Of a stretch of DNA of 64,000 bases, positions 4,266 through 64,000 are shown piece after piece. The notes below the pieces were generated by a model. It searched no databases. It was not told the origin of the DNA and saw nothing but the letters and a program-made list of their open reading frames with translations. The DNA comes from Panagrolaimus kolymaensis (lineage: Eukaryota; Nematoda; Chromadorea; Rhabditida; Panagrolaimidae): positions 8,742,001 through 8,806,000 of the forward strand of contig JAJQJQ010000004.1 in NCBI GenBank assembly GCA_028622995.1. Reading direction: 5' to 3'. Position 1 is the first letter of the stretch. The number at the start of each line of letters is the position of its first letter. A program made the translations under genes and the position numbers.

Positions 4266-4270
4266 GTAAT

Positions 4271-12282: not shown

Positions 12283-12315
12283 TTTTGCGTGTGCACTTGA
12301 TCATAAAAAATATGT

Positions 12316-38608: not shown

Positions 38609-41600
38609 TTAGTTTTCATCAAAATTCAATACTTTTTTCTCGGGATCAATGGTGCTTAGCCCACTGGGCCAATCAAAACAAAAATCTTCAGCAAGGCTAT
38701 CCCAAAAATTGATTCGTTCAGGCCAAAGATTTTCGTGAATTGTAAGTTCTTTATCGATTTGAAGGTATGGAATTTTTTCGGCTGTTACATGAGGAATTTT
38801 AATGTCAGTCGTTTCAGCTTTCCTAAAAAATATTAGTTTTTTTTAAATCGAAAAAATATGATTCAGTTTTAGAATCAATCAAAAAAATTTGTGTAGATAT
38901 TTTTAATGTTTCAAAAATAGAAAGAAATGATAAAATCAGAATACAGTTTTTTTTTATCATAAAAAGGTAGCAGCATGGCTAAAAGTTTTCTAAAGAAAAA
39001 ATGAGAAAGCTTGTGACAGTTTTTAATTGAAAAAAAGAAGAAAAAAATCATTCAGTTTTTTTTATTTTTTTATCAAAGTTTTAAAAGCCCAAATTTTTTT
39101 TTGCAATAACAGTATTTTTGGATAAAATAATAAGATTAAACCTGTTCGCAGTTCTAAAAATAAAGAAAAATCTTTAATATTAAAGATATAAAAATTGATC
39201 AAAAAGAAAGATGCTATGGCTTTATTCTATCCAGTTTTTTTTATATTCATATAATAAATATGAAAAAAAATTTTTGACTTCTATTATCTAGTCTTATGAA
39301 AAACAGTTTTTACTTTTGAGGATTTTTTTAAAAATATTCTTCAAAAAAAATTATTTCCCGTATTTTTTTAAATTTTATACGAAATAAGCTCAGCTTAATA
39401 AAAAAGAGAGTTTTCTTTGAATTCCCAAAAGACAAAGATACGCAGTTTAAAAGTTTTAAAAAAATGCAGCGATAAAATCAAAGTGCTTCAAAATCGAAGA
39501 AAAAACCGCACCAATAACTAAAAATGACACAGTTTATATTACTTTTTCAAAACTAAAAAATGCTAATTTGAGAAATTCGATATTAAGTTTTTATCATATG
39601 TCAATGAAGAACAGTTTTTGTTTTCAAAAAAAAATTTCCAAAAAATTTTTCAACTCAGTTTTATTTAATACATTACTTTTATGATGTCCCAAATGAATCT
39701 AAAGACATCGTAGTTTTTCAAAAAAACTAAAGCTTATTTTTCGAAATCTTACTTTTATGAATACAGTTTTATTTATTTAATTTTTAAATACATCTTTCAA
39801 ATAATCACCACGATTATTCGCTCTTATCAGTTAATAACTTAATATGAAACATTTTTTTTTTGCCGACAGTTGTTTTGGAAATAGCCTTTTAATTTTGTTC
39901 CTTTCCTCGTGTCACAGTTTTTAAACCAACCAAAATATTTTTTTTGATAAAGCCTATTTTTCCATAGCTAAAAAAAACTAAAAGAATGAAGAGAGATGAC
40001 ACAGTTAATTAATTTTTGTAAGGAAAAAAAATTCCAGCAATACAGTTATTTTTTGATTTTTATGTCCTTATTTTTACAGTTTACTCCTTTCCTAAAAACA
40101 ACAACAGAAGACTTGAACAGTTTAATTTTAAATTTTTAATTACCTATCATAATTTTTGCTGACAGTTTATTTATTTTTAAATTCTTATAAAATATCAAAA
40201 CCTACCCATCTTTAGCAAAATTCAAAAACAATTCAGCAAAAGCTTTTTGAACTTTGCTTTCGTCTTCTTTTTCATCATTCATTTCAATTTGGGGTTTTCC
40301 AACCGGGGCATCAAAAAAATTCGGGAGTTCATCAGCATGAGCGACGCCATCAAAATATTTACTTTTATATTTTTGATTTACGAAAGTATAAAGATAAAAA
40401 TAGACTTTCTGCCCTGCTGCCGCTCGAGATTTAGCTTCTCGAAGAGCGGGAATATTAAAATTTACATCCGAAATTAATTGGGTTAACATTGCCAAATATC
40501 GATGATGAGAAACTTTGACATTGGATTCATAAAAATTTATGATACTATCTGCATAATCTTTCGCTGCTGCAGTACCAAAGATTCGTTTATCAGCTAATTT
40601 GTTGGTGACATATTCAGAAAATCGGGCTTTATCCACATTGATAACATCATCGGGATGAATCCAAATATATTTTCCAGAAGTGGTTAATTTTCCAAATGGG
40701 TTCACAGCTGAAAAAGTTTTTTTTCATAATTACCAAAGTAAAGTTTAAAGAAAAAAGTAACTATCAACAACAACAACAAAAAAACATTTGTATAATATTA
40801 TCAAAAAAACAGTTTTAATTTTCCTATGATTTGCTTTAATTGTTTTTATATTAAAGATTCAATAAAACTCGTCGCAGTTTATTCATAAAACAATTGAATT
40901 ATGTGAAATAGAAATCAGTTTTTAGCTAAAAAAATTTCCATGATTCTGCAAATTACCGCAGTTAAAGCATTAAAGAATTGTTCTTTTTTATTTGTATGCA
41001 GTTTTTGTTAATTAACGAAGAAAAAACCAAATTTCATTGCAGTTTTTATTTTGCATTTTTTGGAGGTGTTGTGTCAGAAAATGAGTCACCGACAAACACA
41101 ATAAAAAATTATTTAACAGTTTAATTATTTTTTCTCCTGGATTTCAAAAAAAGAAAAAGCTTTTACTGCACAAAATATTTTTAAAAAATTTATAAAATAT
41201 GGATTTTTAAAAATCGATTTGTAAGTTCGAATGGTAAATTTTATTTGCCTTAACCTCAATCCAGTTAATTATTATCTAAAAATCGGAAAAAAACAGTTTA
41301 ATTTTTTGTTTTTGATAAGAAAGCTTTTTCAATTTTTTATAGTTCTCTTTTGTACCGAAGTAAACATACAGGGACAGTTTTTTCTATTATTTTTTGGCTG
41401 AATTTTTTTATAGGTTAAAATTGTTTAAAAACATAGAAAACACCAAGCTGCAGTTTAAAAAAATAAATTTAAAAAATTTACTTAAATTTTGTTTAAATAA
41501 ATATATGCTTATTGTGATACAGTTTTCTTAAGAACAATCAAAAATTTTTTTGCATAACTCTGGCTTAAAAATTTCTATCCAGTTTAAAAATCTATGAGAA

Positions 41601-44600
41601 AATGAAAAAATAAAATTATTTAACTAACCAAATAAAATAGCTTCTTCATCAACTAACCCCATTAAAATTGGTTTAGAAATATCACTCTTGGGAATTAATT
41701 CCGCTACAGTTTTTTCTTTAAATAAATCTCCATCAATTCGAGGTGAAAAATGAATGAGCACAACTTCATCGATGCGAAGCATTTCAGGGATCTGAAAAAC
41801 CAGAAAATGGTCCCAGTTTACAAAAAAAAAATTATTTTTCTTTCGTTTTTATTTTAAGAATAAAAGATTTTACAATCTCAGTTTTATTTTTATTTAAAAA
41901 AATTCCTAGAAAAATTTGAAGTTAATTTAGGAATTGAAAAGGTTTATGATCATATTCTTTCCAAAAACACATTTTTTTATTGCCTTGTCCATTTATTTCT
42001 TAAAAAAGTATTTTTTAAGACAGTATCCAACGGGCGAGCAACCGCACAGTTAAAATTTCTTTTAAAAAATCTTTTCTCTTCGTGATAATAAGTTTTCCGC
42101 AGTTTTTAATTATTTTCTTGATCGCCTATATTCTCCCGCTCCAGTTTTTATTTTATTTTCAAAAAAATCTACTTTTAAACCCAGAAAGTTATTCTACGAA
42201 CCTTAGAAGGGTTGGATTTTAAAAAATCCATATGAAATAAATTAATTTTAATCTAACCTTTTTAACATTTTCATCGCAGTTTTTTATATTTGTAAAAGCC
42301 GTGTGAACAAGACCATATATTTTAACCGGCAACAGTTTTTATTGAAAATTATTTAAAAAATTTAGCTAAAGTCGCCATTTTTTAAATATCACTTTAAGAC
42401 TATGCAGTTTAAATAAATTTATAAAGTTTATAATCAAATTATATCCGAAATCCCAAGTCAACAGTTTTATTTATTCTACCCACTTGCCGTAAATTAAATG
42501 ACGAAACATTTAAAGCTATCCATAAAGACAGCGAAATGGAAGTTTAAAGAAAATGTTTAAACTAAAATCCTCATTATGTTGTTCTCAGTTTTATTTTGAT
42601 TAAAAAAAAATAAAAAGCTAATTATGATTTTCTTTTCCTTTACTGTGCTTCTAAAATAGTGAAATGGATGAAATGGACCCAAACAGTTAATAAATTTATA
42701 ACCCATGGATATTCGAAGCTTCTCCCAGTTTTATTTACTTTACTCTTTAGATGACCTAAAAGTTACGTACACAGTTAATGGTATCCATCAAGGAACGTTT
42801 TGTGGCAGTTTTGAGAGAGAAAAAAAACTAGCAAATACAAAGTGCTTTTTATTCGTATTTATTAAAAATCAAAATTTTGAAGAAGACAGTTTTTTTTCGC
42901 CCAATATTCTTTCGTTACAGTTTAATTTTTATTTTTGTATTTAAAAAAATGTATTTGCTTACCATACTTTTAACTGCATCCACAATATCATCAGTTGAAA
43001 CTTCAATTATTTCATCCCTGAGTCGAAAGGATTCAAAGTTAATGCCTAATTTCTCCGCAACTTTTTTAGAATGTCGAACTAAATATGGATTATTTGATGA
43101 TTTACTTAAAGCTGAACCACTCATTGCTATAGCTCGAGCATAAAGTCCTTGGGTTTCAGGAGTCAAAGTTAAAAGTGAAGTAGCCATTCCACCAGCGCTA
43201 TGACCAAAAATAGTCACATTTTTAGGATTTCCATTAAATGACAGAAGAATTTCTTGAAGAAATTTCAGCGCCTGAATCATATCCCAAATTCCATAATTTC
43301 CAGGAATATTTCCATCTCCAGTAGTGAAAAAGCCTAAAATAGTAATTATAATGTTCAGTTTTAAGAAAATATAATTTTTTAAAATATGCCAATTAAAATT
43401 TTTTCTTTGCTTTGCGTCAACACAGTAAAAAAATTTTTTCTTTATCTCTGCCTATTGCAATACCAATTCACAGTTTTAAATTTAAAAATTGATTATGGTT
43501 TTCCAGAAAGATAAATAATCGACAGTTTTTTTAATTACAAGTAAAAATAAAAAATTGAAGAATATAATTTGTCAGTAATTAGTTAATTTCAAGGGTCTTA
43601 ATATGTTCACTTTGTCAGTCAATTCTTGAAATATGTGCACAAAATAATACACACAACATTTTTTATTTTATCTCTCTATCTTTTCCATTCGCCCTTAAAA
43701 AACAATATAAATTTTTTTGGTTTCTGCGATCGTGGCTTTAATATTAAATAGTTTCAAATATTTATTCATAAGAAATAAAGTTTTTCTGAACAAATTAATG
43801 TGTTCAAAATCTATTCAACCATATGATTACATATATTTGCTTAGTTTTTTTTTCTTAAAGAACTTTGTGTCAATAATTTACGATCGCCACATTTCACCAA
43901 ATGCCGCGGTTTAAAAAAAAATTTGACTATTTTTTCTAGTAGTCTTTTGCAGAATAGTTAATATTAAGCCTGCAGTAAATCAGTTTATTTTCTCTTAAAA
44001 TTATAAAAACTCCAACCAATAATTTTTTAATGTCAAACGTTTATGTCGAGACATCCACAGTTTTTTTTCTTGATTTTCAAAAGTTGTTGCTGTCCTGTTT
44101 ATTTTTTTACGAAAATCCAGAAACAAATAAAGTCAAATTTTTTTCATTAAAAATTGTTTTTGTAAAGACAATATTATGAAATACAGTTTAAAAAAATTAT
44201 TAATTTATTCTTCGAAAATTTTCCAGGGACAGTTTTTTTTAAATAATTTAGAAATTAATAAATTTTTCAATTTATTTCTTCCCCAAATTTGATATAAACG
44301 AAAAAAGCTACCATCATTAAAAACTTAAACCAATTTCACATCCAACAAATATTCTTATGTAATAAGATTTTAATTTGCCATATTAAAATTCCTGCAGTTT
44401 TTTTCCATTTTAAAAATAGTTAATGGATTTTTTGTTTTTCTAGATACAAAAAAAACACAAATAATGTTTAATTTTTATATCGTGTATTGATTTCTCAACT
44501 TTATTATTGCACAGTTTAAAATTTTATAAATTAATCCACTGATAAAACCTGTCGACAGTTTTTTTTAATAATATTTAAAAGATTTAAATATCAGTTTTTT

Positions 44601-45245
44601 AACCCTAAAACTTGATGTCCCCAAAAAAACACTACCCTGTTACACATTTTTAACCAGTTTTCGATTTCAAAAAATAATAGAATCTTAAAGGGTTTTAAAT
44701 TTTCCTCCTTTTTTTTTTACCGTCCCCAGTTTTTTTTAAATTTGATAATGACTTACCAAAAGGTCCAAGTCGGTAATTAATTGTAACACCAATAATTCCA
44801 TTTGAAACTAATTTCCTGCATGCTTCTTTATAACCCCATTCTCGACTTGATCCCGATACAAATCCTCCACCATGGATGTATACCATCACAGGAAAACCGT
44901 GGCCATCATCTTCAGTTTTATTTTTTGGTTTAAATAAATTCAATGTGAGACAATCTTCATCGCCATCTTTAAATTTTCTCATTGGAAATACAATGGCTGG
45001 TGCTCCAAATTTATCTGCCATTAAAGGTTTATTCCATTTTGTTGGAGGCTGGGCTTTCTGGAAATAAAATTCACAAGAGCTGATGCAGTTAATTAAAAAA
45101 AATTTACTTCAAATCGAAGTTCACCGATTGGAGGTTTAGCATATGGAATGCCTAAAAATATTTCCGTTTCCAACCCTTCAGGAGTTTGATGATTGAATCC
45201 TTCAATTAGGCCATATGGAGTTTCAATTGTTAGAGAATTTGACAT
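38609..45245 (-). CDS. Carboxylesterase/cholinesterase-like, gene 4 (6 exons, 562 aa)
   Basis: Exons, in transcript order, 45108-45245, 44757-45057, 42963-43333, 41629-41791, 40206-40707 and 38609-38822 join in frame. Alpha/beta-hydrolase that cleaves carboxylic esters. It has the family N-terminal block FLGIPYAKPPIGELRFE, oxyanion hole IHGGGF, nucleophile Ser about 192 in GHSAGG, acid Glu in LVDEEA and catalytic His in GVAHADEL. Introns up to 1.4 kb are filled with the CAGTTT motif. No signal peptide follows the chosen ATG (45245), unlike genes 2 and 3. A TAG acceptor (...GTCATAG) 9 nt upstream could join an unseen signal-peptide exon reading VQA before this Met, so the start is uncertain. 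Confidence 0.88.
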
Positions 45246-47462
45246 AGCTTGAACCTATGACAGCTCGTAACAGTTTATTTTTTAAATTTTAATAAAAAAA
45301 AACAAAAAGAAGAAATGACAGCTTTTAAAACAAAAAAGAATTGTAAAGATTATTAAAAATCGAAATGTTTTTTTCATTAAAAAAAGAGATAGAAACCAGA
45401 CAGTTTTTATTTACAAATGAGAGAGGCTAATGGCAGTTTAGTTTAAACAAATTAAATAACGAGACATTTTGAAATTTCAAACTAACTAAAAAAACATTGT
45501 AGTTTTAAATACATAGAAGCAACATGGTGGGCAGTTAACAAATATAAAAAAAATCAAAGCTTTTTAAAGAATTAAGGGAAGCAAAAACTATTCAGTTTGT
45601 TTTCAATGTTAATAAAAATCATTGCAGTTTTAATTCAAAAAATTCAAACTTAGAAAAAAAAATTAAAAAAGTAAGAGTTTTTTTAAACTTTCAAACTTCA
45701 AAAAAAAGTTTATTTAAATTTATATAAAATCAAGAATTGAATATCACAGTTATAAAATAGAAAAATCACAATCTGCCATAATATGACTTCAGTTTTTATT
45801 TATAAAAAAATTTAAAATCACTTAATAAATCTAATTATCAGTTTTATTAATAATCAGTTAAATATTTTTTTTATCTTCTTTTCGCGTAACCAATCCTATT
45901 GGAGTGACAATTTTTTTATACGAATTGCACAAAAAAATGAAAGTGGGATGGATTTCATTATTTTTAGCTGCAAAAAATTTGTTTTTCCAAAACGGTTGGC
46001 TCCTTAGTTTCAGTTAAACAAAAAAAATGCCAAAAGAAGTCGCAGTTTTAATGAATCTTTATAATAGGATTAATAATAAAACCATCACTGCAAATGAATT
46101 ATTTTTTCATTTATTCAAAACCAAAAAAATAAAAATCGAGCGCTGTTTACAAATGTTAATGAACGTGAACATGCGAGAGACATTTTTGATGAACTTTTCA
46201 ACTCACACAAACACAAAAAAATAAATGAAAACACAACTTTAATAATAATCGATTGAGACAGACTCGAATGGACTTTTATTTTATTTTTCCACTTGCTTCC
46301 GTTTGGGTTTGGTTGTTTACGAATATAAAAAAAGAAAGAAGAAAACAAGATGGACACGCGAGAGCGAACAAATGAGAGAGACAGACAGAGGAGACAGCGA
46401 ATTCAAAAACAAAAACACAAGAAAAATAAGAAAAGGACGAGATTTAAAAGTTCTGAACTTTACTAACCAGTTTTATAAAAAAAGAAAAAAATGTCATAAA
46501 AGAGAAGTTTTATTTTATTAGAGCTTATTTTTTGACCTTTTTTATTATTGTAAATTTAAAATAATAAATATTTAATGTCCTTAACGTGTTTGGCTGGCAG
46601 TTTTTTTTCTTTCTATTTATTTATCAACAAATGGAAAATGTAAATCATTTTTCGTGATTTATTCAAATCACTTTAAAATAAATCCTCCGCACTCGACAAA
46701 ATGACGCAGTTTTAAATATTAAAAACAATATTATTTGAAATAATTACTCAAAAAAAGATAATAAAAAAAGCGATTCATCGCTCTTTTACGTTCATAAAAA
46801 AAAGAAAGGACGAAAAAATTATTACTTTTCACCAAGACAAGGCCTTTATTTATTTACGTGGCGTTCTAAAGTCCTTGAGCGCACAGGTAAACGAAAAAAT
46901 ACTCGAATGATGTTATCCAAAAAAGATTCATATTTTGATAGTGAAAACATAAATAATGGGAGAAAATTTATACAATCCAGTTTTTTTTATATTGAGGCTT
47001 TAAAAGTTTTTTTAATCCCGCATAATAAGGTCGTCAGTTTATAAAAAAATTAATAAAATTCATAAATTTTTATTTAATGATTAAAATAAAAAGATGAAAA
47101 AATTCTCTAAAAATTCAGTTTGTAGAATGTAGCAAAAAATGCAACGGAAACATGTTGATTGAGTTTAAAAAAATCCTACAAAAAAAGTATAATAAAAGAA
47201 AGCTTGAAATCTAAAAATTCTGAAAGTTTTTTTTCTAAAAAATTAAATAAACGTTTGAAAACAGTTAATTGATAAAGCAAACATGCGAGAGAAAAAAGAG
47301 GGATTAAATTTTTCTGTCTTATTTGCCCAAAATGATTAAGCGGCTCCCAGTTTTATAATCTATATTTATTTTTTAAGGATAAATAAATTTAAAAATTATT
47401 ACATCTTATACAGTTTATTCGTCAAAAAATTATATACGCAGTTATTTAAAAGAAAAAAACAA
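45246..47462. other. Intergenic between esterase genes 4 and 3
   Basis: No gene supported. CAGTTT motifs continue, but thin out around 45.9-46.5 kb, where the A+T content dips and short purine-rich tracts (GAGAGAGACAGACAGAGG) occur. This may be the promoter or first-exon region of gene 4. Confidence 0.4.
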
Positions 47463-50059
47463 TTAAAATTTTTCACTTTTTTTTATTCTCCTAGCTTCAG
47501 GCCAGTCATATCCATATTCATCGGCTAAAGAATTCCAAAATTCCATTCGATCATTCCATAAATTATCCATTATTTTATTTTCTGAATTTATTTCCAAATA
47601 AATAATGTTAGGGGAATCATGATCGATATGGGGAATTTCAAAATTATTAGTTAATGGCTTTCTAAAAAAATACAAAATAAAAATTTTGAACAGTTAAACG
47701 CAGTTAAAAAATTCATTGAAGTAATATGTTCCTCGAAAATATGTGGGTCTGATAATACAAAAAATATAAGAAGGATATCAGTTTTATGTTTTACTTAATT
47801 TTTGAGTATACAGATAAATCTTCAAAAACAGTATTTTTCCAAACAAAAAAAATAAACTAACCCATTTTTAGCAAAATTCAAAAACAAATCAACCAAGGTT
47901 TTTTGAACTTTAGCAACGTCACCTTCAAATGGCAAACTTGGCACACCAAAAATACTTCCAAAGAAATTGGATAATTCCGATGTGTGTGGTGCACCATCAA
48001 GTAAATTATGTTTCTTTGGCACAAAATTATATAAATAAAAATAAACTTTATGCCCAGCTGCAGCTTTTTTCTTAGCTTCTCGAATCGCGGGAATATTAAA
48101 ATTAACATCAGAAAAAAGTTGGGTGTAAATTTGTAAATAAAAATTTCTTTGATAAGAATTTTGAGATTCATAAAATTCAATTATTCTTTGCACCGCTGAA
48201 GGGGAATTTATTCCAAAAGCATGTTTAACACCAAAAAGAAAATGAACGAGATCAATAAAATCGGTGCGAGAATAATTTGCTGCTTTAGCTTCCGGAATTG
48301 GAATATATTTTGATTCAGAGCCACTATATTTACTGGTAATAGCTGAAACAGTTTTAAATTAACAAAAACGTAAAATAATATATTAATAAATCTCAGTTTT
48401 TTTAGATTATTAAAAACATAAAAACTTTTACCAGTTTTTACTTACCAAAAGTGATATGTTCTTGACTGCAAAGACCCATGAAAATTTCTCTTTTCGGGGC
48501 ATTTCTAAAAGCATCATCAAAATTTGCGCCATGCAAAAACATGCCATCGTGTCTGGGATGGAAATGGGCCAAATTTACATGGTCGCAATTAAAAATATAT
48601 TTAGCAAATCTTAAAGTTGCATTTTTAATTTCTTGCATGGTTTTTGTTTTGAGGCATTCTTTAACATTAGATGCAAGATTGCAATTTGCTGCTTCAATAA
48701 GAAGTTGACTAGCTTCTGGAACTTCATCAGTATGCGCCCAGCCCGCTATTGCCGAACCACTCATAGCAATTGCTCGATTGAAAAGTCCATCGGTGGCTGG
48801 GGATAAAGTTAACCATGAAACAGAAGCTCCACCCGCGGATTCACCAAAAATTGTTACTGATTTTGGATTTCCATTAAAATTTGAAATTATTTTTTGAATA
48901 AATTTCAATGCTTCCACTTGATCCCAAAGTCCATAATTACCAGGGGCATTAGAATCGCCCGTGGAAAAAAATCCAAAGGGTCCCAATCGATAATTAATTG
49001 AAACAAAAATTATTTCTCCCTTTGAAACCATTCGATTTGCCACTTCTGTGTGATTATAATCTGCCGAAGAACCAGAAATAAAACCTCCACCGTGAATCCA
49101 TAACATTATTGGATAACCTTCAGAATTATTTGATTGTATTTTTGGTTTGACTATGTTCATAGTTAAACAGTCTTCTATTCCATTGGGAGACATTAAATCG
49201 GGAGAAGTTGCACATGGTAAACCAAGAAATTTGGCTTGCAATGGTTTTGTTGTCCATGGAATTGGTGGTTGAGGTTTCTAAAAAAGGAAGATATTAATGA
49301 TTTTCAGTTTTATTTTTCTCTATTTTTTTTGTTGCTTTTTTCATACTTTAAACCGTTTAAAAATTTTGAGTTAGAAAAAAATCAAATGAATTGTATTCAA
49401 AGCTCAAAATTTTTTTTACCATTGCCAGTTTTTAAAAAATAATTAAACTTGAAAATTAAAAAACAAAGAAAGCAGTGTTTCTTATTTTTTGGAGTGTCCC
49501 TCATTAACGGGATTTTTCAGTTTTAAATTTCTACTTCTTTTCTGAATATTCCTGTAACCTTCAGTTTTTATATATTTTTCTTTAAATTTTAGAAATTTTT
49601 GCCGAATAAAACAAATAAAATTCTTCTAAAACTTAAAAATTATAAAAGCTTTTTCTTTCCCAAATTAATAATTTAGAAAATTATTATAAACACAAACTAT
49701 AAAACATTTAAACAGTTAATTTTTGCTAACAAAAGCTTCTTTCTTTCTTAATTTTTTAGAACAAAATTTATTTTTAATAAGATAAAAATTCGTCAAACGC
49801 AGTTTCAAATTTTCCAAACAAATTCCGCACCTGCCAGTTTTTTTAAATATTTTCTTACCTCAAATCTCAATTCATTTATTGGAGGTTTGGCATACGGAAT
49901 CCCCAAAAATATTTCAATTTCTATTCCTTCTGGAGTTACATAATTAAATCCTTCAATTGGGCCATATTCAGTCTCCACAATCGGATTAATTTTAGCATGG
50001 ACAGTTAAAAATAAATGAATAAAAAATAAAATTGAAACAAAGCGATGAATTTTAAGCAT
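47463..50059 (-). CDS. Carboxylesterase/cholinesterase-like, gene 3 (4 exons, 570 aa)
   Basis: Exons 49859-50059, 48446-49277, 47862-48342 and 47463-47661 join in frame. Secreted or membrane-delivered esterase: the N-terminus (LKIHRFVSILFFIHLFLTVH followed by AK) is a clear signal peptide. Motifs: FLGIPYAKPPI, oxyanion hole IHGGGF, nucleophile Ser in GESAGG (about residue 213), acid Glu in GLCSQEH, catalytic His in GAPHTSEL. Length is normal for the family. Last exon is 199 nt, the same as gene 2. A recent tandem duplicate of gene 2, with about 100 identical residues around the nucleophile. Introns carry the CAGTTT motif. Confidence 0.93.
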
Positions 50060-50807: not shown

Positions 50808-53800
50808 TTAAAGTTCATCATGTCTTTGAATCTTTTTTGCTTCAGGCCAATCATATCCATATTCATCGGCTAAAGAATCCCAAAATTCCATTCGATCATT
50901 CCATAAATTATCCATTATTTTATTTTCTGAATTTATTTCGATATATGGGATTTTAGAATAGGTGCTTTGAAATTGTGGGACTTCCAAATCATCAGTTGTT
51001 GGTTTTCTGGAATTTTAAATTAATTTCGATAAACAAAAATAATAAATGGTTGTAGACAGTTTTTAAAATAATTTAAATATGTAATAAATATAAAAAATTT
51101 TAGGTTATTGGAGCAAAGGTTTCAAGTATTCATAAAATAAAAAAGTATTAGCTGGTGCAGTTTTTTTTAAAAAAAAATTATTATAAAATTTTTTTTATTT
51201 GCCGTGGCAATATTTATAATGGACGACAGTTATTAGACGAAAAAAAATATACAAAAAATGCCAATCAATTATTTTCTTACTCCAGTTTAAGAAATTCCAA
51301 ACATAATATAAAGAAATAATAATGCAGTTTTTTAATTTTGGAAAGTTTAATAAAAAGTTTAAGGAAGGCCAAAGTCTTAAAATAATGTTTAAATCAGTTT
51401 TATAAAATATAAAAAATGTTGGAAACACAACGGTGCAAAAACCTATTAAACAGTTTTGAAAAATGTCCAAAATAGAGCAAGCTAGACCAGTTTTAAAAAA
51501 AATAACAAATAAATTTACCCATTTTTCGCAAAATTCACAAACATATCAACCATGGATTTTTGAACTTCAGCAACATCACCTTCCAATGGCAAAGTTGGCA
51601 TCCCAAAAACCGAACCAAAAAAGTTAGATAATTCTGAAGCATGAGCAGCGCCATCCAATAAAGCATGCTTTAATTTTTCTGGGGTAAAATTATATAAATA
51701 AAAATAAACTTTATGTCCTGCTTCAGCTTTTTTCTTTGCTTCTCGAATGGCGGGAATATTAAAATTAACATCAGAAAAAAGTTGAGCATAAATTTGTAAA
51801 TAAAATTTTGTTTTATAAACTTTGATAGATTCATAAAATTTTATTATTTTTTCTGCCGCTTCGTTAGCTTTGCTTCCAAAAGCTTTTTCTGTTCCAAAAA
51901 GATGGTGCACAGTTTCAACAAAATCTTCTCGAGAATAAGTGGTTGCTTTTGCTTCGGGAATAGGAACGTATTTGGTTTCAGGATCATTAAATAATGAGCT
52001 AATCGCTGAAATTGTTCATTAATAATAATAATAAAAAAATATTTTTCTACTCAAAAGTTTTTTGAATTTTTTTGTTTTTGTATTAAATCAAAATTTCTGA
52101 TCGTAATAACATTATTCAGTTTTTATTATTTTTTTATGAAACCTTTGATGTGTTTTGGAATTTCTTAGTTTCCTTGAAACGCTTCTTTTTTTAATCTTCA
52201 AATTATTAACGTTTTCTTAAACTCAGTTTTTTTTTAAATCTTAATTTAGTTTACATACTATAAAAAATTAAATCCAACTATTATTCAACTATCCAGTTTT
52301 GTTCTTTAAATAATGGCTAAAGAATGCTAACATTATTTATATTTTTAGCTCAGAAAAAACGAAATTTAAGCTTCTTTGTTTTCAGTTTTTTTGAATATCA
52401 AAACCTAGTATAAACAACTTTTACTGTTTTTTCCCCATTTCAAATTCATTCTTCAGTTTTTTTTAATGCTTAACTTTATATATTTATTAATTACCAAATA
52501 TGACATGGCATTTGAGTTACTCAAACCCTGCTACATTTTTTTTAAATATCAACAACGAAAGAAAATGTCTCTATTTCTACTCAGTTTAATAAATTTTTTA
52601 ATCTTTTTTGTTTTAGAAACTTACCAAAAATAATATGTTCTTGGCTGCAAATTCCAATGAAATTATCCCTTTTGGGAGCATTTTTGATTGCTTCATCCAA
52701 TGTTTTTCCATGCAAAAATTCTCCATCAATTCTTGGATGAAAGTGTGCCAAATTAATATTATCATTTTTGAATATAAATTTTGCGAAAGTCGAAGTAGCA
52801 TTTTTGATTTCTTGGGTGGTTTTTGTTTTCAGGCATTCTTTGACATTTTTTGATTCATCGCATCCAGCGGCTTTGGTTAAAAGTGTGCTAGAATGAATTA
52901 CATCGTCGGTGTGAGCCCAGCCCGCCAATGCTGAACCACTCATAGGAATTGCTCGATTGAAAAGTCCATCGGTTGCTGGGGATAAAGTCAACCAAGAAAC
53001 GGAAGCTCCACCCGCAGATTCACCAAAAATTGTTACGCTTTTTGGATTTCCATTAAAATTAGAAATTATTTTTTGAATAAATTTCAATGCTTCCACTTGA
53101 TCCCAAAGTCCATAATTACCAGGAGCATTAGAATCACCCGTGGAAAAAAATCCAAAAGGTCCTAATCGATAATTAATTGAAACAAAAATTATTTCTCCCT
53201 TTGAAACCATCCGATTTGCCACTTCTGTGTGATTATAATCAGAGGATGAGCCGATGAGGAACGCTCCTCCGTGAATCCAAACCATCACTGCATATCCTTC
53301 ACGGTCATCCGATGGGGTTTTTGGTTTGATAATGTTTAAAGTCAAACAATCTTCACTTCCATGGGGATCAAGCATATCGGGATATGTTGCACATGCATAC
53401 CCGTGTGCATGAGCTTGAAGGGGATTTGTCCATGGTTTAGGAGGTTGAGGTTTCTAAAAAACAAAACAAAAAAGCTTAAATATTTTCTCTTTATGCTCAA
53501 AAATTAGAACTCAGTTTTATTTTTAATAAATTAAGAAATTTACTTTCAGCAATTTAAAAAAATCATTATACTAAATTTCTTTACAGTTTTTTTATTTTAA
53601 TAAATTTTCCCAATTATTTTGCATTTATAATTATTTTTCAAAACTCAGTTTAACTTTAAATTAAATTTTTTACTAAAGACGTTAAGTTTATTACTAATTA
53701 TTAGTATTTTTTATTTTAAGCACCAAATTTTTTCCCCATCGATTTATTGAATATTCAGTTTAAAGCTTTATTCTTATTTATTCTCTACCTATAGATATTC

Positions 53801-54054
53801 TATCCAAAACAAGCATGTATCACCAGTTTATGTCTTTTTTATTTTTAAAAATATTTTCTTACCTCAAATCTCAATTCATCGATAGGAGGTTTGGCATATG
53901 GAATCCCCAAAAACATTTCAATTTCCATTCCTTCGGGTGTAACATAATTAAATCCTTCGATTTGCCCATATTCAGTCCCAACAGTCGGATTCATTTTGGC
54001 TTCAGTTAAAAATAAAAGAATAAAAAATGAAATTGAAAGCACGTTTTTAACCAT
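50808..54054 (-). CDS. Carboxylesterase/cholinesterase-like, gene 2 (4 exons, 568 aa)
   Basis: Exons 53863-54054, 52625-53453, 51519-52005 and 50808-51006 join in frame. I chose the ATG at 54054, because it opens a signal peptide (VKNVLSISFFILLFLTEA). The longer frame upstream is basic and unlikely. Catalytic Ser about 210 in GESAGG, Glu in GICSQEH, His in GAAHASEL. The oxyanion-hole block reads IHGGAF, with Ala where most relatives have Gly, which could alter rate or substrate range. Exon phases match gene 3 exactly, and the last exons are nearly identical in DNA. Introns carry dense CAGTTT motifs. Confidence 0.93.
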
Positions 54055-55027
54055 TCTTAAAAAAAAATTAATAGGGAATAAAACGTTAATTCTAGTGTTC
54101 TTTCTTCTCAGTTTTTTTATCAAGCAAAAAAAAATAAATAGATAAGAGAATTCGAGCGACCACCACTGCCAGCAGCTTCCTCCTCAAAATCTAATACTTT
54201 CGCTTCATTTTTTTTGTTTGCTTGTCTTTTTTGTTCCTCAATTTTTTTGTTTGTTTTGGCATTCTTCAAAAAATCAAAATATTTTTTTCTATAATCTTCT
54301 TAATTTTTTTTATTGCTGAAGTTAATAAATTCAGTTTCTTCTATACATAGTTTAAAAAAATAAAATGCAACGTTTACTGAATACAGTTTTTTAATAAATA
54401 AAATTATGGAAAACTTTTGGAAAGAAGCGACAGTTAAGATTTTCTTGTAATTACAGCGACGTGTTTCTCAGTTATATGTATTTACTATTATTAAAGATAA
54501 AACGAAACAAAAATAACTGAATTGTTTTTTCTTCCATTTACTCTTTTTATGGCCAGTTTATTTATTAAAAAAAATATCAAATAAAAGATTGCATTTTTTT
54601 CTGAAATTGTTCTTTCCAGTTTTGTTTTAATGTTTCAAAGAATTTAATACAATATATGACAGTTTAAAATTATAATAAAAACGATTAATTAAAAATTATT
54701 TAATTTTAAAAATGTGTTCATTATGGCATGATTTGAATATACAGTTTTTGGTGAATTGTATTACCCGATTTTATTTTGCAACCGTTGGATGAAAAATACT
54801 ACAGTTATTTTTTTTTAATAATTTTCTTCGTATGCTCCTTCAAAGAAAGCTAAGTAACAGCTAAATTATTAATTATACAGTTTTTTATAAAGAAATTTTC
54901 GGTGAGGTCAGTTAAAAAAATCTTTTATTTCCAAAATCCTAATTCTTCAGTTTAATTTTTATTTTAATTCTTTGATAAAGTTTTTTTTACATAATAAAAG
55001 CTTGATTCAGTTATTCTTATAATAAAT

Positions 55028-58000
55028 TTATTTTTTCATTTCAATTTTAACATTTCCCTTAAATTTTAAATAAGTTTCTTCATCCATAATTGTAACCCAT
55101 TCTTGAAGGGCTGCATATGCTTCAGCTTGAGGGATACATCGTTTTAGCCTTTCAACTTCTTCCATTTTAGGATTTTCACAAATTGTTAAACAATTTATTG
55201 GATTTTCTCGTTTCACGCAATCCCATTTAATATTGAATGAAGCTGAAAATGGATTGGTTGTTTCATCACCATTGGGGTTTCCAGTCTTTGCAAAATTTGT
55301 AAAAAATGTTGCTAAAAGTGTTGTAACTTTTTTATCGGCTTCAGTTCGAGTGAAAGGAAGAACGTAATAATTTACATCAAAAAGTGATGTTATTTCCGCG
55401 GCATGCGTTGCGCCTGAAACAAATAATTTTTTTTAATTTAAAAGAAAACCTTCTTTGTTTATTAATTTTCAATTTAATAATACATATATAAAAATAATTG
55501 TGTTTTCTTTAAGACATCAAAATTATTTATGCCATTCATATGGATATTCTTTTAAAACCCTTTCTTTCAAATAATCAGTTAAATTTTATTTAGAAAAATT
55601 TTTCTTTAATTTGTCGCCGCTTGGCTTATCAATTTGATTCTTCAGGGTGCAGTTTTATTTTGAAATCATTTTTCTTACTCACCAAGGGAAATATTATATT
55701 TCAGTTTTTTTCCTTCACAAAACATGATAACATTCAGTTTTTTTTAACATTCAAAAAAGTAGCAATTTTTAGATTTTTTTTTTTTAAATACTCAAGTAAA
55801 ACAAAACATTCATTGTGCATTAATATAACGCAGTTAAAATAAGTAAAAAAACAAAACACGCTAAATTTTAGTATTTTTTTTTGGAAATTTATAAAATAAA
55901 TTGTTTTTTCAGTTTTAAATTTCAAAAAAATTTTCGTTTAGCCCCGCAACACCAGAAGCAGTTTAATTCTTTTGAATTTTTTTTGGAAAGAAGATGAAAT
56001 TTTTAATCTTCATAAAGAAATTGCAGTTTTGAATAATTAAAAAAATATTTTGACCCTGAATTTGAAGGTGTTTTTAGAAATTGTTCTTCTCACCCCCAAG
56101 TTTTATCAGTTTGCAGTTTTATGATCTTTTATTTAATATGATACCGAATCTTTTTCTATGGACAGTTTTTTTTATCGAAATGTTTTTCTAAATGATTGAA
56201 TCCTTTCTTATATATGTTTTTTATTCTACCAAAATAAAATCCATATGTGTTAATTTATCGCAGTTTTCAATTTTTGTACCAAAATGTACCAAAATTTATT
56301 GTTCGTATACAGTTTAGCTCAATATTTAATAGAAGTTCATAAAAATTACTATTAATATTATCTGTTTACAGTTATAATTTTACTTTTTTTATTTAATTTT
56401 TTTGCTTTGATTAGGTAGTCGCGAAAATTAAACCGGCTAAATAAACATAAATCAGTTTTTTATTTCCAAAATATTAAAATTAGAATTTGTCCAAATTTGG
56501 GATAACATAAAACAATTTAAATAATAATAAATTTCGTGATTTCAATTTAAAATAAATATTTTAAATGCCTTACCTTTCTTTGGTAAATAAAACCTTATTC
56601 CCAACATCGCCTGCCAATTATAATGAACAAAATTAAATGCATACACTTTTGAGCCCTTTTGCAAAGATTTTTGAATAAAATTATACATTGGAATTGTATT
56701 TATTAAATCACTGCTTATCTGTTAAAAAAAAAGCTTCAATTTCTCATGCTACAGTTTAAAGTAAAAAAAACTTACAGCCACGGCAGTGTCAATTAAATCC
56801 TTTTTATTTTTTACTTGACCTTCGCTAATTCCATATAAATTTTCCCATTTTTGATATGTAAGGGCAGTTTTACTTTTATCTGATATTTGATCCAATTGTT
56901 GAAGTACAGTCTTTGTTCGATCACAAAAAAATTGCATCAATTTTTTGTTGATTTTTACTTGGCCAATTGAAACTAAAAAAAATCGAAATTTTAAAGTGAC
57001 CAGTTTGAAAAGAAACAATATCATCGAAGTACAGTTTTAAAATTTTCTATTCTGGCTAAATTATTACAATTTATTTTGATGATTAGGATGAAGCAGTTTT
57101 ATAATGAATAAAATTTTTATTATTACCCAAAAAAAATAAACAAAAATGTTAGAACCTTGTAAATCCCATCCAATTAACAAGCTACAGTTTTAATTCAAAA
57201 ATATAATTAAATAAAAATTTCTGTTATTTTTGTTCTCGAAAAAAGGTTTACGTTTTTGTTTTTTTAGGCAAACGAATTTTCACCCAGTTTTTTTTAAAAC
57301 TTATTAAAGTTGTTAATGAAAGCTAAGGCTTACACAATAATACAAAGATACCCAGTTACTCTTATCCCTATTGCTATTGAATTTTTAATTTATTCAGTTA
57401 ATTGATAAATATGAAAAAACCGTTTATTTATACAGTTTTTTTAAATATTTTTTCTTTCTCATCTTGCTTTTTTTTAAAGTCTTACTTAAAATTACAGTTA
57501 TTAAAATCCACACAACAATCAATAAAAAAATTTACATTACAGTTACTTTCTCTCCCATATAACTTAAATTTTAAAATCTCAGTTTGTTGTTCAAAAATAA
57601 AAAACGCATAGTAAGGTTTTCAGTTTTTTTTATTATTTAAAGCTTCTTTTTGTTCATTTTTTATTTTCCTTCCACTTTCAATTTTTTTGACAGTTTTTTT
57701 CTTCTTTTTTTGAACGTTGCCTTTGTTGGTTTCCATCAATTTTTACTACAATCAGTTTTTTGATTGTTTCTTTTTCTTTACTTTTTTCTATTTCTAGCCC
57801 CACCTTCTCAGACAAATGCAGTTTAGATAAAAATATTTGAAAAAGGCCATTGTTAGAATCCAACGACATCGGAATCCGCCAGTTTAAAAAAAAGACTTAC
57901 TAAAAAGCAAAGATTCAAATTCAGTTTCTCCAACAATAATTTTCTTTTTTGGAGCTTCGTCTCGAAGTTCACTCAAATTTTTTGGGAAAAAATCCCCATC

Positions 58001-61000
58001 AATCGATGGACTCACAAAAAGTTGAACGGATTCAATTAAATCTTTTCGAAATAACATCGTTGCACCCAAATTATTTGCAGGTTGATTTCTTAAATATTCC
58101 ATTAAAGCTTTATTATCTTCTTTAGTCCATTTTGCTCCATCGTTAGGTTTTTGAAACCCTAATTCCATGGCGCGTTCGCGACAATTTTTTGCTACTCTGC
58201 ATCGAGGTGACATAGCCCAAATGCATTCAGAATTTCCACCCATTATAATTATTTTATCAAATAAATCTGAAAATTTACTATTTTGATATTTGCCACAGTT
58301 TAATTTATAACTATTTGAATATTTTTTTATGTAAAAATTTTAAAAAATTCTTCCAAATATCTTTTTAAAAAAAGATTTTGAGTCTGCAGTTTAGTTTAAA
58401 AAAAAAAAAGATTTTTTCTTCTGAATTGGAATTATTAAAACTAAAATTAATGCTCGCCTTCATAATTTTATTTTTTGCACATCCACAATATTCTCACGCA
58501 CGACAGTTTAATTTATTTGTACCATAAATTTTTTGAAGAAGAAAAAATCGATCAACGAAAGTCGTGCACAGTTTTTTATTCAAACTTTTAATGTGTTTTT
58601 ACTCTAAAATTTCTAATAAGAGAAACGAAAAAAAATATAAGAATTTTTTTGCCAGAATTAACCAATTTTTTAGCGGCGAGTAGCACTTTGCGAACTTATA
58701 AAAACAAAATCTTTTAAGATGATGTTATTAGTCTTTTTCTCCGTTTTTTTTATTAATCTTGTAACAAGGGTTTTTTAGACTAATATTAAATTGCTTAGTT
58801 TAAAATCCTAATATTCAAAAAAACAGTTTTTAAATGTACCAAAAATGCGCCTGTTTTGTAAAAGAAATTTTTTTGTCACAGTTTAAACCAACTTTTTTCT
58901 TAACTACCGCCTCAAAAATAAAAATACAAATTAAATTTTATATTTTGATGCATATTTTTTGGCTTTTATCAAAACGGAAAGCAAATTTTCAGTTTTTTCG
59001 CTCACTATTTTTTTCTATCATTTCAGTTAAATTCAAATAAATTTCTTATGCAAATTTTCCACAAAATTTTATTACCTCTCGTATATGGCGAAAGCGCCAA
59101 TAAATCCACTGAAACTCCACCAGCTGATTGTCCCATTAAAGTAATATTATTCGGATCACCTTTAAAATTGGCTATATTTTTTTTAATAAATTTCAAAGCC
59201 ATGCATTGATCCCATATTCCATAGTTGCCTGTTGCAATTTCATCATCAGTAGTAAAAAATCCCAAAATACCAAGTCTATATTCAATGGTAACAAAAATAA
59301 CGTCGTTTGAAATAATGTTGCTGAAATTTAAGGGCAAATGATTTGTGTTTTAAACGCAGTTTAAAAAAAGTAAATTTGAATTTTATTGCGCAGTTTAAAT
59401 AATTAATTTAGAAATCCAAAAAAATCTAAAAGTTCGCAGTTATCAAAAAAAAAAGCAAAAATTAAAAAGGATTTTCGAATAATTTATATTCTTAAATTCT
59501 TTTCGCATTAAAATGCCTGGTCAATTCACCACAGTTTTTTTTATTAATTTTTTATTTAAAAATGATTGAGTAACCTAAATACCCAAACTTATGTAATTGA
59601 TGGCAGTTTTTATTACTTAAGTTTTTTAACTTCCCAAAAAGATACAGTTTTTATATATTTCTAGGGATAGCTGGAAATTCTAAAATTTAACCAACTTCAT
59701 AATGTTTTCGTAAAATAAAAAGTTTAAAGCTGTAATTATGAATTGGAGTTTTAAATTTTAATAAAAAAATACTTATACACTGTCACACCCAGTTTTATTT
59801 TTTATATTCAATTAACTCATTTATTTGACTTCATATCATAAATGGCACTGATTTACAGTTTTTAATATATTTCTAAAATGAATTTTTTTTATGTTTATTC
59901 GCTTTTTTTAGACACCAAAATTTTTGGTTTTGAATTGTAACATACAGTTTTGAATTTTTGACAACAGTTTTTTTTTCACCTAAAAATGAGTAACATGGAA
60001 AGCTAACATTTACGAAACTCATTTTAAATGATAAGACAAAAAATTCGTGACCTCAGTTTAAAAATAAATATTTTAAATGCCTTATTGGAATCTTTGATAA
60101 ATATAGCAGTGTTACATATTTTCTTTTTTATCGCCTCCGCCTCCGCCTCCGCCTCCGGAGGCGGAGGCGGACGCGTTGGAGGCGCCTCCAGGTCGCCTCC
60201 AGCAAGAATTTTTCCAAACCATTTAAATACAGTAAAAATAAGTGTTTTTTGAGCTTAAAAAGGTATTTTAGCTACTAAAATAAAATAGGTATGCATCAAT
60301 CAAGTAATTTTTGGTTTTTTATAATTTTTTCGGAGTTTTTTATTATTGGTATAATAGCTTAAAATGGTAATAAATCTTTTTTGAGTACATAATTTTGATA
60401 AACGAAATTGTTTTTAAGATAAATAATGTACAAATGAGTGATTTTAGGCAAATTTATCTTAATTTTTTAATTAAAATCTTGGCTGGAGGTTCGGAGGCGG
60501 AGGCGGAGGTGCGCCTCCGCCTCCAGCACATCGCCTCCGCCTCCGCCTCCACCTCCGGAGGCGGAGGCGCCTCCGGAGGCGATGGAGGCGCCTCCGGAGG
60601 TGGAGGCGTGTAACACTGAAATATAGAATATTATTGCGTTGATAGGTGTATCAACAGTTTTTATTTAAGAAACTTGAGAAAGTTTCCATAGAACTTAAAT
60701 AAAGCCAGTTTTTAGCCAAAATATTTTTTAATAAACAGTTAAAATTTTTTGATTTATAATTTTCTTCCAGAGCTCTCCAACTTTGCACCGATTGGGTATT
60801 CAGGCAATAAATCTCAGTTTTATGTTTTTGAAAAATTTGAAATTAAAAGCTTTCCTGCTTTGCTTTTAGTTTAAAATTAGACATTCATGTAAAAATAATG
60901 AAAAAATAGTTTTTCTTTGTGAATTTGTAATTCACTTTTTTATTTCCTCCTAAAAAGTTTTACAGTGACAGTTTTATTCTCTTAAAAATATCCCAAATTT

Positions 61001-62382
61001 TCAATGAATCAAAAAAAAACTAACTTGCAAACATTTTCATATTTTATTCTTGCAGCTGATTCCATAACAAACCCCCCTCCATGAATATAAACCATCACTG
61101 GGAAACCTTTCGATGAAGATGGTGGATTCCAATTAGGCATCATAATATTTAAATATAAACAATCTTCGCCTTTACCCACGCCCGTTTGAATTCCATCCCA
61201 ACAATAATCATTTTGAATTGGACGAGATTTATATTTAATTGTTGGTTTGGTTTTGGGATGCCAAGAATCAGCGGGTTGGGGTTTCTGAAAAATATATATT
61301 ATTCTTTTTTAAAAATGTATTTTTTGAACACAGTTAAAACTTTATTAGAAAAATAAATGATGTCAGCGTTTTATTAATAAAATAATCCTTAAAAGATTGT
61401 TCAAATAAATTTTATTCATTTTTTTTTAAAAAATCAAGTTTTTTTTTCAAATTTTACTTATTTTTTTTCCTATTTATTTAATAATTCCAGTTTTACTGAA
61501 CTAAAATAAAACGACTCATGACAGTTTTTTAGTACAAAAAAATGAAAAAATTTCGCAAAACTGTTGCACCAGTTTTTTTATAACAAATAAACCTATATTT
61601 TTATGGATATTAAATTTTTATATTATTTGAAACGATAGTTGTTAGTTACAGAAGCGCAAACATTTGATATGACAGTTTAAAAATGATAAAAAAAATATCA
61701 CAGAAATTTATCACTAACTAAATTAATTTTTTTTTAACTTTTTACATTAAAAAAATTCTTGTCCACCTATTTTAAATATACCCAGTTTAATTTGTTAATT
61801 TATGTGAAAATTTAATAGGAGTTTTAAAAAATAAAAAAATACAAAAACATTTCGAAAAACGTAGAACTAATTTATTTACGTTCAGTTTTAAAAAAGATTT
61901 TTTCTCGTGGCTTTTCTTACTTAGATAACTACAGTTTTTATATTTTAGACTAACAAATAAAATGCCGATTGTTTAAGTTCAATCGTTTTTAACATTAAAT
62001 ACACAATTTGAATATTGCAGTTTTAATATTTAATAGTTTTTTTCTTTAATTATGACCTTAGCGGAAATTAATAAAAACCTTTTCCGCCTACAAACGAGCT
62101 TGTCAGTTTTTAATACCAAATTTTTTATATTTTCGTGTACCTTTAAAATTAAAGAAAATGTCTGTTTTTTCGCAATTTTTACAATGCAGTTTAAAAAAAG
62201 TCGCTTACCTCAAATCTTAAATTCCCAATAGGAGGTTTAGCAAATGGAATACCCAAATACACATCAGCTACTCTTTCATCCGTTAAAACAAAATGTTTTC
62301 CTTGAATTCTTCCATATTCAATATCTATTTCAGGACGAGGATAAATATTATTTGATGATTTACATGAAAGTGCTGAACCCAT
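55028..62382 (-). CDS. Carboxylesterase/cholinesterase-like, gene 1 (7 exons, 590 aa)
   Basis: Exons 62209-62382, 61025-61284, 59076-59320, 57901-58266, 56776-56972, 56574-56718 and 55028-55413 join in frame. Motifs: YLGIPFAKPPIGNLRFE, oxyanion hole IHGGGF, nucleophile Ser about 210 in GQSAGG (Gln replaces the usual Glu), acid Glu in VGETEFES, His in GATHAAEI. No signal peptide. Instead the protein starts MGSALSCKSS, a good N-myristoylation context (Gly2, Ser6) with a neighbouring Cys7 that could be palmitoylated, so it may sit on the cytosolic face of membranes. The most diverged of the four genes, with the longest introns (up to about 1.7 kb), one of which contains a hAT MITE. The last exon adds a Cys-rich C-terminal region (CVKRENPINCLTICENP). 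Confidence 0.9.
60107..60618. mobile_element. hAT-type MITE, 512 bp, in an intron of esterase gene 1
   Basis: Ends CAGTGTTACA...TGTAACACTG with 8-bp duplications AAATATAG at 60099-60106 and 60619-60626. Both ends carry GC-rich hexamer tracts (GCCTCC)n/(GGAGGC)n arranged as palindromes, in sharp contrast to the A/T-rich surroundings. The middle is plain A/T-rich sequence. No transposase. It lies in the intron between exons 2 and 3 of gene 1, and the frames read across the tracts are glycine/serine repeats, not genes. Confidence 0.95.
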
Positions 62383-64000
62383 TTGTAAAAATTAATATAA
62401 AAAGTAAATAAAATTTAATAAAGAAAAATCTCTAAAAAGATGATGACTCAGTTTACAAAAAAATAAATAATTAAAGCTTTTTTAAAATAAAAGAATTAAG
62501 TTTTTTTGTTATTAATCATTAAAAAACATTGTTTGTCGTAGTTATTGGACTCTTCAAGTTTTATGTTTATAAGCGTTGTTATTGTTGTCATTGGTTACGA
62601 AGAAAGAGGAAAAGGAACTTTTTCGAGAAAGAGAGAAAAAAAAAGTAAAAACATTCAGGCAAATTCATAAAAAAACTTTTTTTATTTTAAATGCATGGTT
62701 GTATAATTTTGTTTAAAAGAAAAACTTTAAAAAATCTTAAATTTTTTTGGTAGAGTTAGCTATTACAGTTTTTACAATCCAGAAACTTAGAAGGAAGAAC
62801 CACAGTTAATTTTTTTTGAAAATAAAAAAAGCCCATAAAAAGTATGATTAAAATAATTATTTAAAAAAAAGTAAAATTTAAAAAAGAAATCAAAGACAGG
62901 CTCATTTAATCATTAGTTAATAAATATAATTTTCTGAATGGTTCAGCTGTCTAAAAGATAAATAAATCCGTTAATGAAATTTATACTGTAGTTAATTTTC
63001 ACATTATCATTGTGAGTAATGATGAGCAAAAGCCTTTTTAAAAATCCTAGAATGTTATTAGCCCGCAGTTTATTACATTTCCACAAACAATGAAAAGAAA
63101 TTTTTTATTTTTTGTATATTTTTGGTATTTATTTTTCATTTGTTCAGTTTTTTTTAAACTTTTATATTTGCTTTTTCACAATCTTAATATTTTTGAAAAA
63201 TGCTTTTTGGGGCCTGTACACAAAAAATGTATGCATTCGAGACAATCGTCATTAAAAAAAATTATACGTGTGTTAAAAAAAATGTGATTCATGAAAGGCT
63301 TTTTTAATTATTTTATTTAAAGAACAAAGAAGAAAAAATTTCTGCGATTGACATTTTTTTTCTTGCTCTGGAACTCATTTATGAAAAAGACAGTTTTTTT
63401 ACATAATTCTTAAAAATAGACTTTAAAACAAAAGCAAAAAAGCAGTTAAGCTTTTCTGTTGTTGCAGTTTAATGAAACATATTTAAAATTTTTAAGCCTC
63501 TCATCATTTTTATTTTTACACTTTACTCGAAGTTGCTTGGTTTTTACATGGATTCATTAGTTTCTTTTTTTTTCATAAATACCCACTTTCTTGGAAAGAT
63601 TTTTCGGTTTCTTCAAAAAGTAATCATCCAAGAAAAATAAGCCAAGTCAATTGATTCCTTTGCTTTTTTCCATCTTTTTTTTATTGCTTTTTTTTTGCCA
63701 TGGTTTTATTTTTTCGTTAAAAAAAATGTGAAAATAAAAAATGAAACGGCAAAGAAACAACAAACACTCGAAATTCATTTTCCAACCACCAAAGCCAAAA
63801 AAAGAAGAGTAAACCGTCATCTTTTTTTTCTTCACCAACAATTTTTTTTTAAAGAAGCAAGTAACTCTAGAAAATAAAAATAAAAAAAAGAGGTGCAAAA
63901 AAGGAAGGAAGGAAGGAAAAGATGATGAGAAAAGGAGTTAAGAAAAGGAAAAAAAAGAAGACTTCTTCTTCTCCATATTTTATTTACTCCACTCTTCTTC
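62383..64000. other. Upstream region of esterase gene 1; end of window
   Basis: No gene seen. The CAGTTT motif continues to about 63465 and then stops. The last 500 bp are T-, A- and GGAA-rich low-complexity sequence (GGAAGGAAGGAAGG at about 63901). Confidence 0.4.

Follow-up and report, generated by a model that had tools for sequence, protein, structure and literature searches.

CAGTTW-tagged 20-nt units in two chromosomal domains of Panagrolaimus kolymaensis and their possible relation to small-RNA libraries

The locus, the CAGTTW field and its distribution

The window analyzed here is a 64,000-nt stretch (C3:8,742,001–8,806,000) of the genome of the free-living nematode P. kolymaensis, which is described as a triploid parthenogen with a genome of 266 Mb (PMC10374039). 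The right part of the window is occupied by a cluster of carboxylesterase ORFs (Table 1). These ORFs are largely free of the hexamer CAGTTW (hereafter, the tag), and the introns and spacers between them are tagged. The best named matches of an esterase exon from the field were found in Panagrolaimus (72% to P. davidi).

Left of the field, the window contains mobile elements and other genes. Two Helitron-like copies lie approximately 100 kb apart, both in tag-free stretches, as would be expected if the insertions were recent. ORFs located beside polB on the other strand looked capsid- or protease-like by eye; one of them was searched against Pfam and gave no match. The one Hsp70-like ORF that was checked scored barely above the Pfam cut-off. 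A tandem array of 110/166-bp units is located at positions 9802–10739. In the window's part of the field, the only tandem arrays are a G+C-rich minisatellite of the CGCCTC type (60132–60608), lying inside A/T-rich DNA, and a 49-bp A/T array at 62459.

Table 1. Features of the window and of the 204 kb scanned around it (window coordinates; edges of the strand blocks given in kb were set by eye from 2-kb bins)
Feature	Position	Strand	Evidence or content
Field-free stretch, same domain	1–38800		Helitron-like element, polB ORF, Hsp70-like ORFs, Rab gene
Helitron-like copy, long open frames	2667–9538	-	Helitron_like_N, PIF1 helicase and Ulp1-like domains
Polinton/Maverick-like fragment	11688–15990		polB (PF03175)
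Run of diverged Hsp70-like ORFs	16619–22092	+	
Tagged-cassette field	38864–64000	+	218 CAGTTW from 38864 to 63465; extends beyond the window to ~81.5 kb
11 carboxylesterase ORFs	40205–61308	-	two by PF00135, nine by local BLASTP
Example unit	payload 44635–44654, tag 44655–44660	+	read from sequence; payload starting with CCC, CAGTTT, then A/T-rich tail
Second Helitron-like copy (C3)	104053–110922	+	same starting residues as the window copy
Field	-40 kb (edge of scanned DNA) to -3.5 kb	+	
Field	38.8–81.5 kb	+	
Field	82–97 kb	-	
Field	113.5–130.5 kb	+	
Field	138–154 kb	-	
Field	156–160 kb	+	

Between positions 38,800 and 63,470, the + strand contains 218 CAGTTW sites, 178 of which are CAGTTT, against 3 WAACTG. 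In 200 dinucleotide-preserving shuffles of this interval, the mean number of CAGTTW was 20.1 (sd 4.0, maximum 31). These counts confirm the strand bias and the rarity of the opposite orientation described in the original prediction, and they agree with its statement that low complexity is not the cause of the pattern. The densest 1,160 bp of the field, at 40,810, contain 14 CAGTTT, close to the 13 counted previously in a stretch of 1.16 kb. The first 38,800 positions contain 10 CAGTTW and 19 WAACTG; the flank at 33.4–38.6 kb and the Rab intron had been said to lack the motif. As for the proposed limits of 38,860 and 63,470, the start was found near 38.8 kb as expected, and the end was not reproduced, since the field runs on beyond the window.

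In 130.9 kb of field, composed of segments picked by eye from the 2-kb-bin profile, CAGTTT occurs 935 times on the field strand and 17 times on the opposite one, CAGTTA occurs 221 and 10 times, respectively, and the tag density is 8.8 (8.83) sites per kb. The tag is strict: among CAGTTT and its 18 single-mismatch variants, a strong field-strand bias is limited to CAGTTT and CAGTTA, and in the other 17 variants it does not exceed 3.7-fold, with small counts (CAGTCT, 10 against 2). CTGTTT is biased in the opposite way (26 against 99), which is probably due to the overlap of its complement, AAACAG, with the tag. A second-order Markov model predicts 230 CAGTTT, although it was trained on the field itself and its expectation is inflated by the motif; the observed number thus exceeds the model in the strand-resolved comparison that had been proposed along with the prediction.

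DNA scored as coding by a home-made codon score contains 26 of the 1,156 field sites, or 1.55 per kb, against 9.90 per kb in the remainder. Fourteen of the 218 sites of the window's field lie inside the esterase ORF intervals (14 stop-to-stop intervals, 6,360 bp in total), which extend past exon ends. The supposed absence of the motif from exons therefore holds as a strong depletion and not as a complete absence. The distribution of the tag through spacers, together with the anatomy of the units described below, speaks against its origin from splice sites.

Scanning of 204 kb around the window showed that the strand of the tag switches between blocks of ~4–43 kb (Table 1). The first blocks suggested that the tag invariably lies antisense to genes, but this rule was dropped since the block-wise coding scores were mixed. 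On the window's contig, five of the six further loci around tag-array matches are fields (L023 is not). The search was extended to the whole genome (265,843,910 bases, 807 contigs). Triplets of tags with 25–55-bp spacing gave 4,161 matches against 316 for the reversed pattern (the totals are complete, the positions are those of the first 100 places), and a narrower triplet pattern gave 97 matches against 3 for the reversed-pattern control. Eighty-four of these 97 are located on seven contigs, namely, C3, C18, C42/C40 and C5, C20, C23; of the remainder, seven come from small contigs in which these strings recur, two from a tandem repeat of C61, and four from other places. Dense CAGTTT is nearly restricted to two domains with sampled spans of ~2.3–3.1 Mb, each present in three homeologous copies, homeology being assigned from matching strings and, for the first domain, also from direct comparison of the homeologs. 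The genome-wide search thus bears out the predicted local confinement, and the same density everywhere was not observed. With 52 triplets found in 130.9 kb (0.397 per kb) and a density of 8.83 sites per kb, rough scaling gives ~9.7 Mb of field in the genome and ~85,000 units, that is, ~28,000 per haploid set.

The C3 segment at ~8.79–8.82 Mb is colinear and in the same orientation with C18 and C42, and distal anchors map in reverse. Because of this arrangement, an inversion seems to separate the homeologs, the tag strand moving along with the DNA.

Anatomy of the units

The structure of the field was analyzed using 1,473 sites, each accompanied within 1 kb by 8 or more sites on its own strand and by few on the opposite one. 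In this set, a unit consists of a 20-nt payload, the CAGTTW tag, and ~17 nt with 85% A+T, and almost all of the information is found between positions -20 and +22. The payload edge at -20 is sharp: the frequency of C is 0.30 against a background of 0.13, and G is scarce. Position -19 is mainly A or C (T, 0.18), so that C and A are favoured and T is avoided at the edge, and CC at -20/-19 was found 190 times against 34 expected. The payload is T-poor with a G+C content of 0.295, compared to 0.22–0.25 in the flanks, and after the tag the G+C content is 0.152 over +6 to +22. Predicted melting is high in the payload and falls steeply past the tag (+ reading, first 600 of the 1,473 sites).

Units nearer than 28 bp to each other are rare: spacings of 6–27 bp number 35 in total, against ~15 for each single distance at 30–70 bp, and the distribution is flat from ~30 bp. 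No positioned 4- or 5-mer was found within 100 bp outside -27 to +27, and T-runs are in weak excess upstream of the units. Tags on the minority strand have no payload edge (CC in 1 of 27). In 33 units of domain B, a set of strings that includes homeologous pairs, the payload has T of 0.32 and G+C of 0.30, the same as in the main set; C at -20 is present in only 7 of the 33, and G is not depleted there (5 of 33). The original prediction proposed no function for the motif and mentioned neither the payload and the A/T tail nor the exclusion below 28 bp, the switching of strand between blocks and the restriction to two domains.

Two other properties were considered and rejected. Base-paired structure inside the unit was not supported, as the pairwise information consists mostly of A/T-run pairs a few bases apart, and complementary pairs within the unit are fewer than expected. 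Copying of payloads from elsewhere was not supported either, as matches to other parts of the 204 kb are less frequent for payloads than for flanks. In addition, a ~10-bp A/T periodicity, which is a mark of periodic A/T clusters (PATC), was absent in a crude analysis of AA/TT power (ratio of 0.85–0.88 in three fields and 0.80 in the window at 16–38 kb).

Divergence between homeologs

The homeologs on C18 and C42 were aligned to the window from position 50,000 onward, and 24–25 kb of 30–34 kb could be aligned. In the ordered-pair set (1,228 non-independent comparisons), identity was 0.964 in the tag, 0.803 at -20 to -8, 0.766 at -7 to -1, and 0.892 and 0.871 in the flanks. The unordered-pair set was resampled over sites and required a mostly aligned neighbourhood, so that some sites were lost. 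The ratio of payload to flank divergence was 1.84 (95% 1.63–2.06, 188 sites) for the pair A–B and 1.81 (1.64–1.99, 197 sites) for A–C. The tag was intact at 160 of 188 sites in A–B and at 164 of 197 in A–C, against 57% and 44% expected, respectively. Among ten control hexamers, the combination of a conserved motif with a diverged upstream stretch appeared, in a weaker form, only in TTCAGT, which overlaps the tag, and in TGACTT, represented by 14 comparisons.

For comparison, fourfold synonymous sites differed at 85 of 511 positions in A–B and at 93 of 493 (0.19) in A–C; the nine sequences of this set are six esterase exons and three ORFs that lack independent gene support. Payload divergence was 0.171 in A–B and 0.228 in A–C, and flank divergence was 0.080 and 0.095, or 0.090 and 0.127 in the unordered-pair set. 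The divergence of the payload is thus close to, or slightly higher than, that of synonymous sites, and that of the flanks is half to two thirds of the synonymous value. Therefore, the length, edge and composition of the payload are fixed, and its sequence is best regarded as free of constraint; the flanks, being slower than synonymous sites, may be the unusual part. Where the tag was lost, payload divergence was 0.202 in A–B (28 sites), compared to 0.164 at intact sites, and 0.22 in A–C (31 sites), compared to 0.229. Since it is not lower at sites without the tag, payload drift need not depend on tag function. That the field is real, is built of units and is under selection can be stated with very high confidence.

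A possible small-RNA library and its alternatives

The two-domain arrangement was compared with that of known nematode small-RNA loci. In the type I piRNA genes, the Ruby motif CTGTTTCA stands ~40 nt upstream of the payload. According to published data, C. elegans piRNA loci occupy two 3-Mb regions, and nematode piRNA genes carry a high-to-low melting pausing signature (PMC6436959); for C. briggsae, 25,883 piRNA loci are reported, 17,751 of them clustered, with drifting sequences and preserved promoter features (PMC9683057). The fields of P. kolymaensis resemble these 21U-RNA clusters in forming megabase domains, two as in C. elegans, with thousands of short, largely non-coding units, and the number of units per haploid set is near that of the C. 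briggsae loci. Similarity with type I piRNA genes extends to the combination of a fixed motif with a free, unconserved payload of ~20 nt (here, 20 nt) and an adjoining A/T-rich signal, and the high-to-low melting across the unit, noted above in the + reading of 600 sites, is also shared.

However, here the tag is CAGTTW and touches the payload. In 131 kb of field, CTGTTTCA was found 2 times in forward and 12 times in reverse orientation, showing no association with the units, and GTTTC and GAAAC form no positioned peak within 80 bp, save adjoining the tag, where both overlap it. Composition tables show no enrichment of T or YRNT at either payload edge. In the range of 76–106 bp upstream of the U6 core, a distance taken from C. 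elegans, neither CAGTTT (0 of 15) nor AAACTG (0 of 15) was present. Furthermore, whole blocks are single-strand, and PIWI is reported as lost in clade IV nematodes (PMC4323106, PMC6436959, PMC6468775). The loss is reported to include piRNAs, and Panagrellus, a relative, is reported to have none (PMC4323106). Because the Ruby motif, the 5'-U/YRNT signature and a U6-type element were not found and PIWI is reported absent, the fields were not classed as a type I piRNA cluster.

Closer in taxonomy are the 21–22U RNAs of the clade IV nematode Strongyloides ratti, which are described as forming two clusters of 1 and 2.7 Mb on the X chromosome, in same-strand overlapping runs with 5' U, with no upstream motif found in that study and with an A/U-rich neighbour placed upstream in its text and downstream in its Table 1 (PMC9203780). 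The P. kolymaensis units share with them the clade, a similar length, megabase clusters, same-strand runs and the A/T(U)-rich neighbour; the 5' U and the X-chromosome location set the S. ratti RNAs apart. The third group, the 22G-RNAs, is reported to have 5' G and a length of ~22 nt (22–26 nt in Globodera, clade IV), and clade IV is reported to keep RNA-dependent RNA polymerases (RdRPs) despite the loss of PIWI (PMC4323106).

In the triploid assembly of P. kolymaensis, 86 exon-level matches to the RdRP profile PF05183 and 143 to the Piwi-domain profile PF02171, the latter counted across clades together, suggest that both families are expanded; RdRP genes, needed for 22G-type products, are thus present. 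Piwi_N (PF23278) gave 0 matches, but this profile was silent in all 14 control genomes too. By eye, one 600-base Piwi-domain exon resembles the Ago type. Known 22G-RNAs are made on targeted transcripts, and we know of no fixed template tag for them; here, in contrast, a fixed genome-encoded tag recurs tens of thousands of times. A literature search covering titles, abstract openings and a few subscription papers revealed no CAGTTT field and no piRNA-like loci of Panagrolaimus.

Considering all possible forms together, it is probable that the units yield ~20-nt RNAs, a step from payload to RNA that we infer. The chances appear even that the field is part of a piRNA-cluster-like, genome-encoded library of ~20–21-nt RNAs. 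This reading draws on the payload of the 1,473 sites, which is sharply bounded at 20 nt and distinct in composition, the few spacings under 28 bp, the melting drop from payload to tail that is similar to the nematode piRNA pausing signature, the conserved tag beside a fast-diverging payload, and the two megabase domains. In such a library, a freely drifting payload of ~20 nt would have CAGTTW and the A/T-rich tail as a mark at one of its ends, with ~28,000 units per haploid set sitting in the introns and spacers of the two domains. Long precursor RNAs of a single strand sense would traverse each block, and CAGUUW would work on the precursor RNA as a signal, most likely as the start of an RdRP. 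The polymerase would start opposite the C and copy ~20 nt, producing 5'-G RNAs of ~21 nt, which would provide piRNA-like guides without PIWI. The predicted products would resemble 22G-RNAs of the RRF-1/EGO-1 type. We prefer this mechanism, which we likewise infer, on account of the block-wide strand uniformity independent of gene strand, the lack of a positioned upstream element and the many RdRP and Piwi-domain matches, and we assign to it about half of the probability of the library as a whole. In its full form, a PIWI-independent guide library with tens of thousands of 20-nt payloads and CAGUUW tags for RdRP start that replaced piRNA genes in a PIWI-less lineage is a tentative proposal.

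Germline protection in clade IV worms, which are reported to lack PIWI, is only partly known, and a tagged library would be a direct handle on it: ~28,000 units per haploid set would be recognizable from DNA alone, and the tag can be searched across all related genomes. Within the genus, systemic RNAi is reported for P. superbus (PMC2453295). If true, this would be a second, differently built answer to the same problem as that of the C. elegans piRNA clusters.

Several observations count against the library reading. The -20 edge is also compatible with other rulers, and a copy extending from the C to the edge would measure 20–21 nt, a little below 22G-RNAs. Payload divergence does not drop at tag-lost sites, the domain-B units seldom have C at -20 and are not depleted of G there, and the flanks are possibly unusual. 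T-runs are in weak excess upstream of the units, and a PIWI may be present in this genome. Read on the - strand, A/T-rich DNA, AAACTG and 20 nt follow one another in a layout that is just as compact and resembles a promoter. The last point leads to autonomous tiny Pol II genes like the C. elegans type I piRNAs, an alternative that we consider rather unlikely. In its + version, payload, tag and A/T tail would be a short transcript with a dedicated terminator; in its - version, the A/T-rich DNA with AAACTG would be a core promoter with 20 nt immediately downstream. The melting profile over payload and tail speaks for short Pol II transcripts that terminate at the tag, the exclusion of 27–28 bp is near the ~28 nt reported for C. 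elegans precursors (PMC6436959), and the megabase, mostly non-coding clusters would also fit. However, the + version has no positioned upstream element, neither the Ruby motif nor the U6 copies show the association expected of such genes, and a single strand throughout a block is unexpected, as C. briggsae clusters are described as using both strands (PMC9683057).

It is unlikely that the units are DNA-level sites for a domain-specific chromosomal protein acting in silencing, pairing or looping, and that the payload is a freely evolving spacer. The strict 6-bp core, the two chromosomal domains and the very high copy number agree with this, but a protein site would not readily account for an edge that is sharp at 20 nt and has base preferences of its own, nor for the one-strand blocks, and the 20 nt beside the tag are conserved less well than the usual flanking DNA. 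An origin of the pattern from base composition, from simple repetition or from a family of fossil transposons, to which the A/T-richness of the region might point, is refuted here by the shuffles (218 against 20.1), by the presence of only two tandem arrays in the window's field, by the lack of common sequence beyond the unit, and by the poorer matching of payloads, relative to flanks, to other places in the 204 kb. Finally, a very unlikely explanation is a mutation hot strip, in which mutation of the neighbouring 20 bp is raised by binding or transcription at the tag, any RNA product being irrelevant. The polarised rate is indeed 0.0904 in the payload against 0.0368 in the flank, and changes of C>G and G>C are raised 5.2- and 5.8-fold, respectively. 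At the same time, payload divergence (0.23 in A–C) is near that of fourfold synonymous sites and is not lower at tag-lost sites; both results weaken hypermutation, which is not required. In addition, payload C is retained more often at -20 (0.82) and -19 (0.84) than elsewhere in the payload (0.72), so that the payload edge looks selected.
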